Positions 1,007 through 60,670 of a DNA stretch of 64,000 bases are shown here, one piece after another. The position numbers and the translations under genes were made by a program. The DNA lies in the NCBI GenBank assembly GCA_000447185.1, contig KE647357.1, positions 2,573 through 66,572 of the forward strand, read 5' to 3'. The first letter of the stretch is position 1. Each line of letters opens with the position of its first letter. The stretch comes from Vairimorpha apis BRL 01 (taxonomy: Eukaryota > Microsporidia > Nosematidae). The notes beneath the pieces are model-generated. The model worked only from the letters and a program-made list of their open reading frames with translations. It was not told where the DNA came from and made no database searches.

Positions 1007-1690
1007 ATGTTGTATCCTCATTGTAATAAAGCTAGAAAAACAGTAGATCATATGGCCACAAGATGCGAAAAGATGCTAGGTCAAGATTATATGCGCAGAC
1101 ACAATGCTATTGTTAAATGCATTCATTTGTTATTGTGTAATAAACATAATATAGCAATAGGAAATAAAAAACTGAGAGGATATTTTGTGCAACAAATAGT
1201 CGCAAATAAATATGTCGAAATAAGAGTAGATACAACCATAAAAACAGACGTCAAGATAAGATATAATAAACCTGATATACTGTTAATTGACAAAATTAAG
1301 AAAGAACTACTTATCGTGGAAATAGGAGTCACTTCACTTGACAATTTGCAACAAGTCGAGTCAGAAAAATTTAGGAAATATGATGAACTTGCAAATGAAT
1401 TGGGTTTAATACATGGATGTAAGACAAAGATCATACCATATGTGATAACGTGGGACGGTATAGTGAGTAAATATCACTCTAAACATAGAAAAGAACTTGG
1501 TATCACTGACAGAATTGAGGCATACATTCAGTCTACAACTCTTATAAAGAATCTTGAGAGCATTTCAATGGAGTACAGGAGAGGAGAGAGGATAGCTGAA
1601 ACCGAAGAGGCAGACCAGCAAACAAATGTTTTCCAAGGGCAAATACTAGTGTGAACAAATTATATTATAAAAATAACCCTTAAATAAATA
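1007..1690 (+). mobile_element. 5'-truncated non-LTR retrotransposon copy: zinc motif plus restriction-like endonuclease domain
   Basis: The open frame 1007-1654 is the C-terminal third of a site-specific-type non-LTR element. It begins inside a zinc motif (PHC, then H and C in VDHMATRC), where the first cysteine of the expected CPHC is a tyrosine. It then carries the restriction-like endonuclease core: KPD, about 15 residues later VEIGV, then KYDELANELG and YVITWDGIVSKY. Nothing of the reverse transcriptase is present upstream, as expected from 5' truncation during target-primed reverse transcription. A short 3' tail with AAATAACCC follows the stop. G+C is clearly higher than in the flanks. 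It aligns by eye with the element at 51.7-55.2 kb and with relics near 8.9, 23.4 and 55.8 kb. The frame is open, but a lone endonuclease cannot retrotranspose. Confidence 0.85.
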
Positions 1691-20192: not shown

Positions 20193-20303
20193 ATGTCAAA
20201 TCCATCAACATTTTCTGTTTATTATAATGATCTTAAATTAAAAAATAAAACTATTTTAATCAATAATTTATTTATAAATAATTTTATTAAGCATAAACAA
20301 TGA
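20193..20303 (+). CDS. Upstream ORF overlapping the GATA start codon
   Basis: A 36-codon frame (MSNPSTFSVYYNDL...KHKQ) ends with TGA at 20301-20303, which overlaps the ATG at 20300-20302 of the GATA gene in an ATGA arrangement. Such an overlap suits termination-reinitiation. It could instead be chance, or a lost N-terminus of the main protein. Confidence 0.4.
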   Translation: MSNPSTFSVYYNDLKLKNKTILINNLFINNFIKHKQ

Positions 20304-21382
20304 CAAATCTCAATTCACCAAATGATGATAAAGTTGAAATGAACAAAAATAAAGAATCTGATTGCAGATATGATAAACATGTAGGTATGAGTTATAGTAA
20401 TGATTTTAATTATTCTAATTTAAATTACTCCAATATGAATTATTCTAAGGATTTAAAAAATGAAAATAATCAAAAAAATAAAAGTGAAGAAATAGGAACA
20501 GGAAATAAATCTCAACAATACAAAGGACTCAATAACCAAGAAATATATAACAGTGGAAATAAATTTTACGAAAATAAAGACTTTAGCAATAAAGATTATT
20601 ACAATGATATGTACGCGAATCCAAATTTATATAAAGATACATATTCTAATGAAATGTATAGCACTTTTAATAAAGACAATCAAGATTATTATTATAGAAA
20701 TCAACCATATAATTATTCTTCTGTAAAACCATACACAGATGAACCTTATAGACTATATAAGACTGATCCAAACAACTTTCAAGATATGAATGAATATTAT
20801 AATAATCAAAGATATTATGATGATCAATATTATGAATCAAATGCAAATTCTTATGGTAATTTTACACCATACAATCCATATCCTAAATTAGGAAGAGAAA
20901 TGAAAAGAAAAGCAAAACAAAGAATTTGTTCGAACTGTAACACAACTAGCACTCCTTCATGGAGGCGCGGAGAAAATGGAAAAAGTTTATTATGTAATGC
21001 TTGTGGGCTTTATCAAAAATTACATGGTCGAGCTCGTCCATATACTGTAACTCCAAATGGGAGAACAAAAGCATTAAAAGGAGGCTATGAAAAAACTTTA
21101 TGTGTAAGTTGCAATAATCTTTATCCTATATCTGAAATTAGAGGATCAAATAATGCACATGTTTGTGATAATTGTATGGTTAATATAAAAAATGCACAAG
21201 AAAATGGTTATAATTATAATGATTATCAATATTATAAATATGGAAATTATCATAACTATTACAATGGGCAAGTAGATTATCCTACGGAAACAGATCCTGA
21301 CAATGTAAATGTAAATAACAATGTATATGAGAATTTACAAAGTGAAGTACTTCCTAGAAATGATTTTAAAAAGGATTTCTAA
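20300..21382 (+). CDS. GATA-type zinc-finger transcription factor
   Basis: The 360-residue protein has a long low-complexity N-terminus rich in Asn, Tyr, Asp and Ser (repeated NYSN/YYN blocks). A single GATA finger lies at about residues 210-235: CSNCNTTSTPSWRR, 18 residues between cysteine pairs, then CNACGLYQKLHGRARP with a basic tail. CX2CX18CX2C is the spacing known from fungal and plant GATA factors. Downstream, CVSC and, 18 residues later, CDNC make a second possible zinc site without the GATA signature. The protein presumably binds GATA sites in the nucleus. No CCC/GGG signal precedes its ATG; instead it is overlapped by a uORF. The frame is intact. Confidence 0.9.
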   Translation: MTNLNSPNDDKVEMNKNKESDCRYDKHVGMSYSNDFNYSNLNYSNMNYSKDLKNENNQKNKSEEIGTGNKSQQYKGLNNQEIYNSGNKFYENKDFSNKDYYNDMYANPNLYKDTYSNEMYSTFNKDNQDYYYRNQPYNYSSVKPYTDEPYRLYKTDPNNFQDMNEYYNNQRYYDDQYYESNANSYGNFTPYNPYPKLGREMKRKAKQRICSNCNTTSTPSWRRGENGKSLLCNACGLYQKLHGRARPYTVTPNGRTKALKGGYEKTLCVSCNNLYPISEIRGSNNAHVCDNCMVNIKNAQENGYNYNDYQYYKYGNYHNYYNGQVDYPTETDPDNVNVNNNVYENLQSEVLPRNDFKKDF

Positions 21383-51904: not shown

Positions 51905-52841
51905 TCATCTTCTTCTATCCATAGAAATAGACTCTAAAGTTTTTTTAAGTACAATGAATTGCATGTATACCTCAAGATTTGGTTGTATTTCCAGCTCTTT
52001 GATATACTTTCTGTTGTACTTAGTTACCACCTCATCCCATGTTATTACATATGGAACAATCTTTGTCCGAGATTTAAATATTTGTCCAAGTTCATTAGCC
52101 AAAAGATCATACTTTCTTAATTTTTCGTTTTCGACAATAGTCAAACGGTCTTGATTGGTTATTCCAATCTCGATAATTAAGATTTCTTTATTCTTTTTGT
52201 CTATTACTAGTATGTCAGGCTTATTATGGCAGACTTTAATATCAGTTAATACTCTTGTATCCACTCGTATCTCGGCATTGTCATTAGACATAACCTCTTG
52301 AACTGAGTGGCTTCTTATTTTATTCGTCTTTTTAAATCCATATTTTTACAAAGAAGAAGATGTATACATCATACTACTTCATTATGCCTTCTCATGTAGT
52401 CAAAACCCAACATTCGGTCGCATTTGGTAGCTAAATGATCAACTGTCTTTCTTTGAGATCCACAGTGAGGACATTGTCCTACTTGACCACAGAAGATATT
52501 TCAATCCTGTAGGAAGTATAAATTGCTTCGGATCTGGCCTGATTGTTTCCCTTTGTTAGCCATGTAGACGAATCCTTAATGCTTATTAGTTCATTGGTCT
52601 TAGCTTTATACAACTTACCGTGATTTGACCGATTTTGAATTTCGTTGTATAATTTTAATTTTTGTGCTTCAACTAACACTTTTAAGGATGGAATTTCTTC
52701 CAGACTATACCTAATTTTGAGGTAACTTACTATAAGAGACAGGTGAGAAGCACATGCTTCTTCACTTTTCAATATTGCAGCACGTCTAAGAGAGCTATTT
52801 CTAGTCTCGTTAAACGATTTATGCATTGTTAAAAGCATACA
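51905..52841 (-). pseudogene. Connector, zinc motif and endonuclease of the retrotransposon, in pieces
   Basis: One piece (52838-52479) is the helical connector (MLLTMHKSFNETRNSSLRRA, ISIKDSSTWLTKGNNQARSE), leading in an adjoining frame into CPHCGSQRKTVDHLATKCDR then MLGFDYMRRHNEVV, an intact CCHC-type zinc motif. The second piece (52291-51905) is the endonuclease: EIRVDTRVLTDIKVCHNKPD, ILVIDKKNKEILIIEIGI, KYDLLANELG, then VPYVITWDEVVTKYNRKY. The KPD and EI residues fit the PD-(D/E)XK-type active site. A frameshift around 52.3-52.4 kb separates zinc motif and endonuclease. The sequence extends towards 51.7 kb with a charged tail before the 3' end. Confidence 0.85.
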
Positions 52842-53114
52842 TTCACTATCACTTTCAATATTAGTAAGTCCTCTCCCATTTCCGTTCTGGGTAGGTACAG
52901 TCTTTCTTTACATGCTGGCTGTAAATGAACTTAGTACTTAATTAGTACCTGACGGATGTCATGATCAAGACTTTTAAAATCACTAGGTTCAAGTTTCACG
53001 AGTCCTACATGGTAGTTTATAACTGATATTGCATGCCCATTGATGGCTCGAATCATGTTCTTACCATTGAATTTAGTCATACACAGTTTTTCTACCCGAC
53101 AAAGTATTTCTTTC

Positions 53115-54128
53115 TTAACTTTTAAAAATCTCTTTTTTGACTATAATGGAGGCGTCTTCCGTTATTCCTAGGTATTTATAACCTTGATGGCCTTCCAATA
53201 TAACTGCATCGCTTTCATACCTTGTACAGTTAGCAGCGGATTTTCTTTGGTTAATCTCAAGTCCTACAGTCGCAAAGAATTTTTTAGTTTCTTCATTTAT
53301 TGACTTGAGAGTTACTTCGGTCTTTGCAAGAAGCTTTATATCATCATTAAACAGCAGGTGGTTAGTTATAAAGTCCTTTTCCTTTAAATTAATTTCTACT
53401 TTGGGATACATTAAATTAAGTTTTCTACTCAACAGGTCCATACATAGAACAAATAGTAAAGGTGATAGAGAGACTCCTTGTAAAATTCCTCTCTCTATCT
53501 TTTTCTCCAAAATTGTTTCCACTCCCGATTTTATCTCAATGTGCCACTGGCTGATAATACTTTCGAGGAAAGTAACTATCCATTGAGAGAGATTCAATTT
53601 ACTTACGCACGCTAATAGATATCTATGTTCTACTGAATCGTAGGACTTTTTAACATCTATCCACATGGTTTTCAGTTTGTTACCATGTTCCTTATTGATT
53701 GCTATATTAACCATAGCTTGTTCTTTGGCTCCTTGCACGTTTCTAACTGTACCCATCTGGTTTTCAGCCAACAACCCTCCTCTCTCTACTATTAACTGCA
53801 TAACTTTCGTCGTGCATTTTGTTGTTAGTTTGTAGAGATTAGACATACATGTGATAGGCCTAAAGTCGCTACCACGTGTTGGAACACCTCTCGGTATCAG
53901 GTATGTCAAACCTTTGTAAAACCAAGATTCGGTATTTTCCCCTTTTAAACATATCTCCTTTATAACCTTGTAAAGGAATGAATGAATACTTTCACATTTC
54001 TTAATAAAAAAATTGTAAATGCCATCGCATCCAGCAGCTTTCCAATTCGGAAGATATTCAATAATATCAACAAATTCTGCATATGTAGGAAAATGTTCTT
54101 GATCATTTGTATCAGGGACATACATCAT
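53115..54128 (-). pseudogene. Reverse transcriptase domain of the retrotransposon
   Basis: The open 337-residue piece contains the canonical order of motifs: LPNWKAAGCDGIYNFFIKKC (entry motif), LIPRGVPTRGSDFRPITCMS then NLYKL, WIDVKKSYDSVEHR (motif A with the catalytic Asp), ERGILQGVSLSPLLFVLCMD (motif B, where the usual Asp after QG is Val), and LLFNDDIKLLAK (motif C, FNDD with both aspartates), then GLEINQRKS and KYLGI. Catalytic residues remain. The frame opens after a shift that cuts it from the upstream segment NHDVIKVDIENFWSTMWEK and ends in a stop before the thumb. It is therefore a broken part of a larger polyprotein. Confidence 0.9.
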
Positions 54129-55925: not shown

Positions 55926-57441
55926 ATTACTAAGACGACTTGAAGAAGATTGTATTAGAATCAACAACATTGAGCTTATAAAAGTTAATTTTATAGAATA
56001 GACAGATACAAGTAATTGGTGTAAAATTAAGGACTGTGAACGAAAAAAAAGAGAAACTATATTAAATAATCTTTCATCTATAAATATGTTCAATATGATT
56101 TATATTATAGAAATTTCTTAAAAAATTTTCATATTAAAATCTTTGACAGAGTAAAAAAATCATCCCATAATTTTTACATTAAAGAACATAAATAAGGATC
56201 TATTATGACAGAAATGTATTTATTTATAAACCTACATTTGATTTTTTATTTTTATTAAAATGAAAATATCTAAAATTAATAACTTTTTTTTAAAAGAATG
56301 TTACTGAAGTATTAGAAACAATAACTATATAATACAATGAGATAAATAAAAAATAGTATTTATTTTAAATCTTTTTTCAATCTATAATAAAATAACTAAA
56401 TTTTTCATTTATTTAATTTTACAAAAACTATTAAAATAATTATTTTTTTTAATTTTAAAAAAATATCTACTACTTAAATTTATATTTTAGTTTATTTAAT
56501 ATATATATTATTTTAAAATATAAATTATTACATAGATTTTTTTTGTTTTAATTTTTTAAAACCTAAATTATGAATATTTTTATAATGATATATGTAGTTA
56601 ACTTTTGAATTTGAAGTATTTTTGAATTTTTATATAATATATTTATTTTATAATAAAAAATTATAACTTTTTTTATTTATTTCAATTTTATTTATTTATA
56701 TTTTTTACATCATTAAAATAAATATTATATTAATAAATAAAATATACACGTAATTTTGATTATATATAATGTTTTGGACAAATTTATAAATATAATAAAA
56801 ATTAATAAATTTTTACAAATTATAAATAATAGAATATTTTGTTTTTTATATTGTTTAAAATTTCTGACATATTAAATTAAAATATTTTTTTAATTCAAAG
56901 ACCTTTAATTTTTTAGATTTAGACTACATTTAAATCGTATTTTTAAAATATATTATAAAATATTATTGTTATTTAATTATATGATAATAATAATAAAAAA
57001 TTTTCTGCTTACTAAAAAATTATTTTTTAATTATAAATTAAAGACAATTTATTTTACATTACAAAAAATTATATTTTCATTTAAAAAAATATATTTTTTT
57101 TAGATATGATATAAACCAAAATGCAAAGTAAATGTTTTTTATTGGTTATTAAATTATAAAATTAACAAAACTTTATATACAATAAAAATTGGGTATTAAA
57201 AACAAAAAGTAATAAATCAAAAATTAAACAAAAATTTTAATTTACTCACTTTTAAATTTGTAGAACAAACTAACATACAATTTGATTGGCATCTAAATAT
57301 AAATCAGTTATCGAAAAAATATATCTGATAAATTGATAATTTTAAGTAAACCAGTAGAAAATTTCTTTTTTTAATATAACTAATATAATGATTTGTTATG
57401 TTATTTATATAAAAAATTTGAAATAATATATCAATACGTAA
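55926..57441. other. 1.5 kb AT-rich spacer
   Basis: Apart from decayed sequence up to about 56050, nothing is supported. Confidence 0.5.
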
Positions 57442-57996
57442 ATGATCTTAGAATTAAATCAAAATGATTTTTTTTATGAACTATGTGAAAACGATGAAGT
57501 TTTAGTCTATGAAGAAGAAGATAAATTTTACAAACGGTTTTGTTCATGTTTATCAGATTCTGTAGTAAAAATATGCGTAAAAAATATGGAAACACTAAAA
57601 AATCGTTTATTATATGACCTTAATGTATTTGATTTACCATTTGCTATTTATTATAGTAATGTTATAACTAAACATCACAAAATACAGAAAGAGGTCAATC
57701 GTATTGATCTTATTAAATATGATTTGTTAGAGAGAAAAGTTAATAAAATTATTTATTTAAATAATGTGGCTATTTTTTTAGAAGGTCGTCCTGGTGAGAC
57801 GGATGAAGAAACTACTAAAATCATTGAACAATTTGAATCCATACCTTATGTATATTATAATGTTTTATTAAATAATCGTTTACGAAATTATGTTACAGAT
57901 ATGACTAAATGTAATACATTTCCTCAAATATACATTAATGGTAATTATATCAAAAATCACAAAAAAATACCACAATTACTTTCACAGATCAAGTAA
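57442..57996 (+). CDS. Grx3/4 (PICOT)-like protein lacking the CGFS cysteine, copy 1
   Basis: The 184-residue protein has two parts. The first (1-85) is thioredoxin-like, with a strand VVKICVKNM and the cis-proline segment FDLPFAIYYSNVITKHHK. The second (about 100-184) follows a monothiol glutaredoxin: KIIYLNNVAIFLEGRPG, a helix EETTKIIEQF, a strand YVYYNVLL, then TFPQIYINGNYI. Grx3/4 proteins use CGFS and glutathione to hold an Fe-S cluster. Here CGFS is replaced by acidic/Thr residues (GETDEET), and the later GG is also lost (IKNHKKI). It is paralogous to the gene at 60110, 2.1 kb away on the same strand. No CCC/GGG start signal is seen. It is probably a non-catalytic paralog. Confidence 0.65.
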   Translation: MILELNQNDFFYELCENDEVLVYEEEDKFYKRFCSCLSDSVVKICVKNMETLKNRLLYDLNVFDLPFAIYYSNVITKHHKIQKEVNRIDLIKYDLLERKVNKIIYLNNVAIFLEGRPGETDEETTKIIEQFESIPYVYYNVLLNNRLRNYVTDMTKCNTFPQIYINGNYIKNHKKIPQLLSQIK

Positions 57997-60109
57997 AATT
58001 ATAAAAATTTGTTTTTATGTTTTATAAAATTTTTTTTGTACAATTAAATTTTTGTTTATAAAATAAATCTACTTAAAATTATATAAAGTATTTTTTAATT
58101 AAGAAAATTGAAACTTTCTAAATATATAAATTATTAAATTGATTATAAGTTTGTTTTATTTTATTTATATCATAAATTAATTTATTTTTAAACTACATTT
58201 TTTGTTAATTTATTTTTTATATCATTATTTTGTTATTAATAATTTGAATTTATTAGAAAAATGTTTTTAAATGCAAAAAATTTAAATAAAAATATTATTC
58301 TATTAAATAATAGTATATAAGATTTTATGATTATAAATAATTGTATTTTTATATTTTCACATCAAATTCCTATTCATAATTTTTTTTAATGAGCAATTAT
58401 TATTTTCCTAATATACTTTTTTAATTAAAATGAAATATAAATAATTTGTAAATTATAATTTTAAATGATGGATTATTATGTAACAAAATAAGGCATATTT
58501 TTGCTTTAATTAAAACACAATTATAATTTGTTTTAGAGACTATTTTTATATTTTTAAAATGATTTCTAGTTAATGTTTAATCTAAATGATTAATTCATTT
58601 TTTAATCAAATTTTGGTCATTATATATGATATTTTTAATTACTTATTAAATAAAGTTTACACAATATTATAAGTTAATTGTAAAGTTAAAATTTTTTTCG
58701 TTTTATTATAATATTTTTTTTTACTTTAATTAATGTAGTTAAAATAAATTTTATATATTAACTAAAATTAAAATAATACTTTGTATTACAACATTAATTA
58801 AATAAGAAAAATTGGTTTATCACCATTTGATAAAAAATTTTAAAACAAAAAGAAAATATAAAGACTTTTATTATAAAAAAATTTAATATTTATAATTTAA
58901 ATAAAATCAAATCAAATCAAATAAAACTTAAAAATTAATATATAAAAAAAATAAATATTTTAAGGATTAGATAATTGTAGAATTTAAATATTACATTATA
59001 ATTAAATATTTATAAATAAAAAATATTTAAACTATTTTATTTATTCGATAAATAAAAAATACAGTAAAAGTAAAATTTATAGTTTATTTAATTTTTGTAC
59101 AATTAAAATAAATTTTAAATGTACATAATTTAAAATTGCAAATTAGGTAAATACACATTTTATACTAAATATTTTATTGAATATTATTTCATATTTTATA
59201 AATATTATTATTGATAAAACAACAGTATAAAATTTTTTCAAAATTTTAGCGTCTTTTTTTACCATAATTTAAAATAAATTTTAAATGCAAAGATCTATTA
59301 AAATTTTTAATTCTATTGATTTTTCAAATTATTATTATTTTTAACAGTTTATAATTTAACAAAAAATCGTATTTTTCAATTAAAATGCTATATTTATTAT
59401 TGACAAACTAATTTTTTTGTTTTTTATAGAATATAAAATTATTTTATAAATTTTAATAAAAATTTTAAAATTTCTTTTTTTATTTAAAATATAATGTATT
59501 TGATTTTAAATTTTTAAAAATTATTAATTTTAGACTTTGAGTCAATATTATATATAAATAATATCTTACTGTAAACAAATAATAATTATAAGTAATATTT
59601 AATGATTAATTTTCATATAAATAAAATTTAAAAAATTTATCTAAATTTTTAATTAACTAATTATTTTTTTGATAAAAAAGTTTAATAATTTTAAGCAAAA
59701 ACAAGGTTGTTTTTATTTATTAACTATAATTTATCTCATATTTTTTAATAGCAAAAAAATCAAAATTTATATTAAGTAATAAATTAAATTTATATCATGT
59801 TTAAAATTTTTTCTTTTTATGTATATCATAACTTGTTTTTATTTTAAAAATTTGCTTTGACAGATTTGATGTTTAAATGAAAAAGATATGAATAAATTTT
59901 TAAATTTTTTTTAATTTAACAAAAGTAAAAATTTTATAAAATACCTTGTAGGAAAGATCTAAATTGTTATAAAACCAGATAAATGTATGTATATTAAAAT
60001 TTAAATTCGATTTTACAGTTTTTGTAACATATAACTATTGTATTTATAGATGATAAATAAATTAAAAGGTTTGACTAGTTTATTTATATAAAGATTTTTT
60101 AATATCTAA
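57997..60109. other. 2.1 kb AT-rich spacer between the paralogs
   Basis: No gene remnant of a third copy is visible. A short TCAAA tandem occurs at about 58905-58922. Confidence 0.5.
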
Positions 60110-60670
60110 ATGAGAATAGAACTTGATCAAAATGAATTTTTGTATGAGTTATGTGAACATGATGAAGTTATAGTTTATAAAGATGAGAATGATCCTACAT
60201 ATAAAAAATTAATATCTTGTTTTTCAAAATCAGTTGTAAAAGTATGTGTTAAAGATATGGATACACTTAAAAATATAATTATGAATGATTTATGTGTTTC
60301 AGAAATACCATTTGCAATATATTGTGGTCATATTATTACTAAGCATCATAAAATTCAAAAGGAAATAGAACGAATAGATTTTTTTAAAGAAAGTATCTTA
60401 GAACGTAAAATACAAAAAATAATTTGTTTAAATGATATTGCTATCTTTATGGAAGGTAAACCAGAAACTACAAATGAACAAACTTTAGAAATGCTAAAAA
60501 TATTTAAAAATATATCTTACGCATATTATAATGTACTTTTAAATGAAAGACTTAAACTTAAAGTCATCGATATGACAGGATATTTCAACTTTCCTCAAAT
60601 TTTTATAAATAGTAATTTTGTAGGTGGTATAGAAGAAGTATTAAATTTACATCATAAAGGAGAACTATAA
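60110..60670 (+). CDS. Grx3/4 (PICOT)-like protein lacking the CGFS cysteine, copy 2
   Basis: The 186-residue paralog of the gene at 57442 shares about half its residues by eye and the same two-part layout: N-terminal thioredoxin-like (VVKVCVKDMDTL, SEIPFAIYCGHIITKHHK) and C-terminal glutaredoxin-like (KIICLNDIAIFMEGKP, YAYYNVLLNERL, NFPQIFINSNFVGGIEEV). It keeps the glutathione-binding-type GG before the last helix, which copy 1 lost. Like copy 1 it lacks CGFS (ETTNEQT in its place). Duplication followed by unequal decay is the simplest history. Fe-S ligation through this site is impossible as written; a scaffold or binding role is inference. No start signal is seen. Confidence 0.68.
   Translation: MRIELDQNEFLYELCEHDEVIVYKDENDPTYKKLISCFSKSVVKVCVKDMDTLKNIIMNDLCVSEIPFAIYCGHIITKHHKIQKEIERIDFFKESILERKIQKIICLNDIAIFMEGKPETTNEQTLEMLKIFKNISYAYYNVLLNERLKLKVIDMTGYFNFPQIFINSNFVGGIEEVLNLHHKGEL

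Follow-up and report, generated by a model that had tools for sequence, protein, structure and literature searches.

Two tandem genes of the honey-bee gut parasite Vairimorpha apis (Microsporidia, Nosematidae) encode glutaredoxin (Grx)-like proteins from which the CGFS active-site motif has been deleted. They lie in a stretch of 64,000 nucleotides of strain BRL 01 (contig KE647357.1, positions 2,573 to 66,572; hereafter the window). Both frames are open from ATG to stop, the genes are on the plus strand with a spacing of 2.1 kb, and their products, copy 1 and copy 2 (Table 1), share 55% identity across 180 columns. From anatomy and ancestry there is little doubt that the two are CGFS-less, tandemly arranged paralogs of Grx3/4, the cytosolic monothiol glutaredoxin. 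As a whole they are best explained as such paralogs serving as cluster-free partner-binding modules, a reading to which I give an even chance.

Loss of the active site in both copies

Searching 5.8 billion protein clusters twice gave one and the same set of CGFS-less proteins, P0001 to P0005; such searches rely on shared 5-residue words, and more distant relatives may escape them. P0004 is copy 1 of the window itself, P0002 and P0003 are orthologs of copy 2, and P0005 is an ortholog of copy 1. The remaining 13 matches of the second search are one three-domain protein of 328 amino acids and twelve proteins of 102-109 amino acids (4 of the 13 sequences were inspected). The CGFS-less set for comparison consisted of five proteins (both copies, P0002, P0003, and P0005), P0001 being omitted as 99% identical to copy 2. 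The canonical set consisted of seven Vairimorpha-type Grx3 proteins, P0006-P0008 with CGFS and P0010-P0013 with CQFS.

At the position of the CGFS Cys, all five CGFS-less proteins have a gap and 7/7 canonical proteins have Cys. An earlier note on this DNA had described the motif as replaced by acidic and Thr residues. The loss holds for both copies, but it is not merely a replacement, since 3 or 4 columns are gapped at this point in the alignments; just where the gap falls inside the active-site loop depends on the choice of alignment. The column of the CGFS Ser is Asn or Asp in 5/5 CGFS-less proteins. The glutathione-site Lys before the active-site loop is Glu in the same five and Lys in all seven canonical proteins, a change that the earlier note does not mention; this Lys is described as strictly conserved across all Grxs, with Arg very rarely in its place (PMC7351949). 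The Trp of the WP motif and the Cys of GGCD are also gone in 5/5. The cis-Pro and the FPQ sequence are present in all five, and both copies contain the FPQI(Y/F)IN segment reported in the earlier note. GG is retained in three of the five, all of the copy-2 lineage, and the alignment agrees with the earlier observation of GG in copy 2 and none in copy 1. The old glutathione pocket has diverged between the copies (KNHKKI in copy 1 versus GGIEEV in copy 2), and the copies probably differ in their partners.

Since the Lys, the CGFS, and the GGCD are gone, the Grx site of the copies most likely holds no glutathione-ligated [2Fe-2S] cluster, judging from the missing ligands. I infer that there is no thiol chemistry at this site either.

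Fold and Grx3/4 ancestry

The proposed Grx3/4-type ancestry was borne out when the profiles of the CGFS-less set and of canonical Grx3 were aligned; the match is full-length (residues 9-186; probability 98.9, E 2.5e-17). The Pfam Glutaredoxin family matches both copies above the cut-off (E 1.7e-7 and 3.6e-5), although the match covers profile positions 20-60 and 22-60 only and leaves the active-site third unmatched in both. The C-terminal half has the Grx fold in both copies, as judged by predicted structure and fold search, so the earlier note is not refuted at the level of fold. The closest PDB relatives of both copies are monothiol glutaredoxins, for example GLRX5 and GrxS14. For TIGR00365 (Grx4 family monothiol glutaredoxin; cut-off 117.1 bits) the copies score 30.6 and 43.0, and the canonical P0006 (108.4) and P0012 (108.5) are also under the cut-off, which alone is thus no separator.

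The layout of a thioredoxin (Trx)-like half followed by a Grx-like half stands for the Grx half. For the Trx-like half there is some support, from homology with the N half of canonical microsporidian Grx3 and from the copy-2 model, but not from a direct thioredoxin match. When the N halves alone were aligned, the CGFS-less and canonical sets scored 26.5 versus a shuffle maximum of 22.5 (none of 200 shuffles as high), with a probability of just 44.5 over 40 columns. The N halves of the CGFS-less and canonical proteins gave no match to the single Trx domain tested (from P0022), and a Pfam scan of both copies gave no thioredoxin family. The top PDB match of the canonical N half is a thioredoxin, with a non-significant E of 0.15, and the fold search barely covered residues 1-90. 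The Trx domain of the Encephalitozoon cuniculi Grx is described as divergent and truncated, and a similar stretch in T. hominis as unrecognised as Trx (PMC5216125).

Selection and relatives

Between copy 1 and copy 2, 184 codons were compared, with 72, 34, and 87 differences at codon positions 1, 2, and 3, respectively. The NG86 method gave a nonsynonymous divergence (dN) of 0.37 and a synonymous divergence (dS) of 1.14, with a ratio of 0.32 for the whole, 0.23 for the N half, and 0.45 for the C half. In a neutral simulation run to equal third-position divergence (500 runs), a mean of 16 stop codons and a minimum of 6 arose, and at most 63 of 184 residues stayed identical, while 99 identical residues and two open frames are observed. 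Pseudogenes or chance open reading frames (ORFs) are rejected on the dN/dS ratio, the simulation, and the orthologs. The earlier note had suggested selection for a different role and had named a dN/dS near one as evidence to the contrary. The ratio of 0.32, taken between the two copies only, does not refute it; purifying selection and the orthologs stand, while a different role is likely and its nature is inferred.

In the trees, the grouping of copy 1 with P0005 is firm and that of the copy-2 clade less so (83/83 and 85/92). Thus, the duplication is older than at least one species split. The CGFS-less set was grouped with full support, yet it could not be placed: constraining it with the three CGFS-type proteins cost 0.78 log units and was not rejected (p-AU 0.425), nor was holding six canonical proteins together with P0013 left out (cost 0.78, p-AU 0.419). 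The branch from the CGFS-less set to canonical Grx3 is very long, with a total of about 3.2-3.4 changes per column. Divergence between orthologs is about 0.2-0.3 changes per column in the CGFS-less set and about 0.2-0.4 in canonical Grx3 groups, if species correspondence is assumed.

Constraint shifted toward the N half

Identity among the CGFS-less orthologs is 86-88% in the N half and 64-79% in the C half. Among the canonical proteins of V. apis and P0007/P0008 it is 69-74% and 74-81%, respectively, where the pairing of P0002/P0003 with P0007/P0008 as the same species is an assumption. The halves were contrasted over the 172 columns in which none of the 12 proteins has a gap, with four N/C boundaries. 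The log odds ratio of N over C identity was +0.69 to +1.75 for the CGFS-less pairs and -0.89 to +0.60 for nine canonical pairs. All 96 contrasts between CGFS-less and canonical pairs had the same sign and 71 had p under 0.05, although the contrasts share sequences and are hence non-independent. Taken alone, the copy-1/P0005 pair gave a Fisher p of 0.0007 and the copy-2/P0003 pair 0.007. A full inversion of constraint was considered and rejected; the initial 16 contrasts, chosen four per boundary, all had p under 0.03, but the fuller set shows canonical Grx3 to be mixed and not weighted toward the C half throughout. The contrasts show a consistent shift of constraint toward the N half in the CGFS-less proteins relative to canonical Grx3.

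A canonical Grx3 in the same genome

The searched genome (5.96 Mb, 223 contigs) has six Grx-family matches: the two copies, one on contig C55, two on C188, and one on C71. In the BRL 01 assembly the C55 gene (about 1420-1997 of L001, minus strand), which encodes a Trx-like half and a CGFS Grx half, is divided between two reading frames; its intact form of 187 amino acids is P0006, from other assemblies. Loss of the CGFS protein from the organism, a matter that the earlier note had left to a genome search, is ruled out by this separate gene and its intact form. Thus, the copies need not explain a gap in iron-sulfur (Fe-S) trafficking. The NCBI model P0009 (135 amino acids) matches the C55 gene minus a stretch that includes CGFS, and public annotation would therefore wrongly suggest that V. 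apis has no CGFS. The canonical Grx3 has CGFS in V. apis, P0007, and P0008, and CQFS in P0010-P0013 (P0012 is from V. bombi and P0013 from V. necatrix).

The two C188 genes (779-1042 and 1453-1767 of L002) are tandem single-domain CxxC glutaredoxins with the motifs CTRC and CPFC, and the C71 gene is a CSDT glutaredoxin. The copy-2 protein had five matches in the genome: itself, copy 1, two other Grx genes, and contig C66. The C66 match was rejected as a hidden further copy; it reads as an ORF that I take to be ribosomal L17-like, and the match was taken as chance. An Isu1-type scaffold (PF01592, E 5.8e-51) and Dre2/CIAPIN1 (E 2.4e-7) are present in the genome. The BolA family (PF01722) had no matches, in a search that was positive in 4 of 14 prokaryote control genomes and whose sensitivity is thus uncertain.

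Proposed docking without a cluster, and its rivals

The copies would be cluster-free protein-binding modules whose working surface is the N half and whose Grx half serves mainly as a scaffold. Their likeliest specific role would be to bind partners of canonical Grx3 and thereby compete with or tune it. In Schizosaccharomyces pombe, Grx4 without its Grx Cys is reported to be just mildly affected in binding Fep1 (PMC4373815), and in HeLa cells only Trx plus the first Grx domain is reported to have rescued the loss of GLRX3, single domains having failed (PMC12375892). From these results, together with the missing ligands, the copies are read as cluster-free docking modules. An adaptor or competitor role via the N half is a tentative proposal, a little short of even. 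A fuller history is a rather doubtful one: a Grx3-derived cluster-free module that underwent a burst of change, then duplication and purifying selection with the N half doing the work, and that may be a Grx3 antagonist or regulator or may have gained an N-half metal site.

Several results weigh against docking without a cluster. The S. pombe Grx4 Cys-to-Ser mutant is reported to have no cluster and to resemble the deletion in growth and iron signalling (PMC4373815); thus, the job of Grx4 itself needs the cluster. Copy 2 retains GG, so residual ligand binding in its pocket is possible. As for the N half, most of its copy-1 model has pLDDT <65, and an off-target control, the CGFS-less N half against the canonical C half, reached 19.0, which exceeds the 95% level of the shuffles (17.0). 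The dS between the copies is close to saturation. The shift toward the N half is based on few relatives: 25 of the 96 contrasts are non-significant, three of nine canonical pairs (P0007/P0008, P0011/P0012, and P0006/P0012) are themselves weighted toward the N half at no fewer than three of the four boundaries, and the copy-2/P0002 pair (Fisher p 0.18) and two canonical pairs (0.22 and 0.19) are non-significant alone. Lastly, Cys15, Cys37, Cys46, and His80 (copy-2 numbering) are invariant in 5/5 CGFS-less proteins and absent from those columns in 7/7 canonical ones.

These residues, together with the N half being the best conserved half, would fit a metal or redox site relocated to the Cys gained there. 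This is unlikely, since the Cys columns are no more conserved than the rest (3/6 invariant versus 50/96 of all columns), and the Cys15/Cys37 and Cys46/His80 pairs appear to lie at opposite ends of the sheet, as read from the predicted element order. The new metal site was not promoted for want of conservation enrichment in the Cys columns. Heterodimers with canonical Grx3, in which the missing ligand would come from the single CGFS of the dimer or from a BolA-like partner, are improbable to a similar degree. Grx clusters are described as bridging two subunits or a Grx and a BolA protein, as in Grx4-Grx4 and Grx4-Fra2 (PMC4373815), and the overall fold of the copies is retained, but the glutathione pocket, the source of the other ligand, is gone as well (Lys changed to Glu, GGCD absent) and the genome gave no BolA matches, within the sensitivity stated above. 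Slow pseudogenisation of relaxed, decaying duplicates would account for the very long branch and the less conserved C half, but is very improbable against two open frames, a dN/dS of 0.32, conservation far beyond the neutral simulation, orthologs 77-83% identical, and a CGFS-less ortholog divergence not above that of canonical Grx3 groups if the species pairs correspond.

Features and neighbours in the window

Table 1. Positions in the window of the two CGFS-less genes and their parts
Feature	Position	Strand	Basis
Copy 1, CGFS-less Trx-like/Grx-like protein, 184 aa	57442..57996	+	ORF, Pfam, pairwise alignment, ortholog P0005 (77% identical)
Copy 2, CGFS-less Trx-like/Grx-like protein, 186 aa	60110..60670	+	ORF, Pfam, orthologs P0002 (83%) and P0003 (78%); P0001 (99%)
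Copy 1 N half, residues 1-95, best conserved part	57442..57726	+	Trx-like via homology to canonical Grx3 N half; low-confidence model
Copy 2 N half, residues 1-96	60110..60397	+	Model: strand-helix-strand-helix-strand-strand-helix, Trx-fold order
Copy 1 active-site loop remnant EGRPGETD, Lys to Glu, CGFS deleted	57781..57804	+	Alignments
Copy 2 active-site loop remnant EGKPETTN, Lys to Glu, CGFS deleted	60452..60475	+	Alignments
Copy 1 FPQI, cis-Pro segment kept	57919..57930	+	Alignments
Copy 2 FPQI, cis-Pro segment kept	60590..60601	+	Alignments
Copy 1 site of GG glutathione motif, KN	57952..57957	+	Alignments
Copy 2 GG kept, GGIE where canonical has GGCD	60623..60628	+	Alignments

The fission-yeast repressor Fep1, which partners Grx4, belongs to the GATA factors. 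A GATA zinc-finger protein (PF00320) is encoded at 20300-21382 (plus strand) of the window, a mere candidate partner. Pieces of a broken retroelement of the non-LTR (long terminal repeat) type were recognised by eye at 51905-54128 (minus strand) and 1007-1654 (plus strand); they appear to comprise one ORF resembling a reverse transcriptase and a related C-terminal ORF present twice, and 1007-1654 has no Pfam match.

Neither copy has the microsporidian start motif, described as CCC/GGG (PMC2803860). Among the other ORFs of the window, those with a Pfam match have it within 20 bases upstream in 9 of 12 cases and those without one in 3 of 14. This scoring covers 28 of 33 window ORFs and omits an ORF antisense to 1007-1654, another at 2569-2898, and three in the retroelement at 51.9-54.1 kb. 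The motif sits just before canonical Grx3. The C188 glutaredoxins have a CCC run just inside each ORF, not ahead of the ATG. A promoter change as a mark of the copies was rejected, because three other Grx genes are also without the motif. The sequence TTATTTATATAAA is common to both copies upstream of the ATG, at 57401-57413 (-41 to -29) and 60080-60092 (-30 to -18).

Comparison with known systems

The copies resemble Grx3/4 proteins (PICOT, GLRX3; microsporidian ThGrx3 and EcGrx5) in domain order, with a short, divergent N half ahead of the Grx half, and in length, cis-Pro segment, and full-length profile match. They differ in the deleted CGFS, the change of Lys to Glu, the loss of the Trp and the GGCD Cys, and the shift of constraint to the N half. 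The three-domain Trx-Grx-Grx protein P0022 looks similar by eye, its middle Grx having Glu for Lys (LEGTPEEP), no CGFS, and GGIE. However, its degenerate domain stands beside a CGFS domain in one chain, while that of the copies is in its own gene. The A3 profile favours the CGFS domain of P0022 (32.1 bits) over the degenerate one (22.7 bits); on these scores the likeness to the copies is probably convergent.

Grx-like proteins that have lost the active-site motif but kept the Grx domain are already known, from P0022 and from single-domain proteins whose authors suggest co-option for a new function (PMC2679010). The latter are single-domain and, in one panel, from a bacterial tree, whereas the copies are eukaryotic, two-domain, and tandem, with a CGFS gene in the same genome. 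In a literature search that left subscription journals mostly uncovered, I found no report of a CGFS-less Grx3 in microsporidia, nor of a two-domain CGFS-less pair that is tandem, under selection, and accompanied by an intact Grx3. Proteins of the SH3BGR/SH3BGRL family have a Grx fold without the catalytic Cys and use it in protein binding, which makes them a comparison of working only. Neither copy matches PF04908 (SH3BGR) at E up to 10, where the HMMER filters drop most matches above about 0.1, and the canonical P0012 and P0013 match it at E 0.13 and 0.078, below the cut-off.

Microsporidia shed genes readily and have a much reduced cell plan. Two constrained copies without their defining chemistry are unexpected in such organisms. 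The copies would separate Grx3 as a cluster carrier from Grx3 as a docking module. Since the rescue of GLRX3 loss needs Trx plus Grx, the Trx-like half has a part to play, and the reasons are still under study. A naturally occurring protein whose N half is conserved and whose Grx half is gutted would offer a clean test of this.
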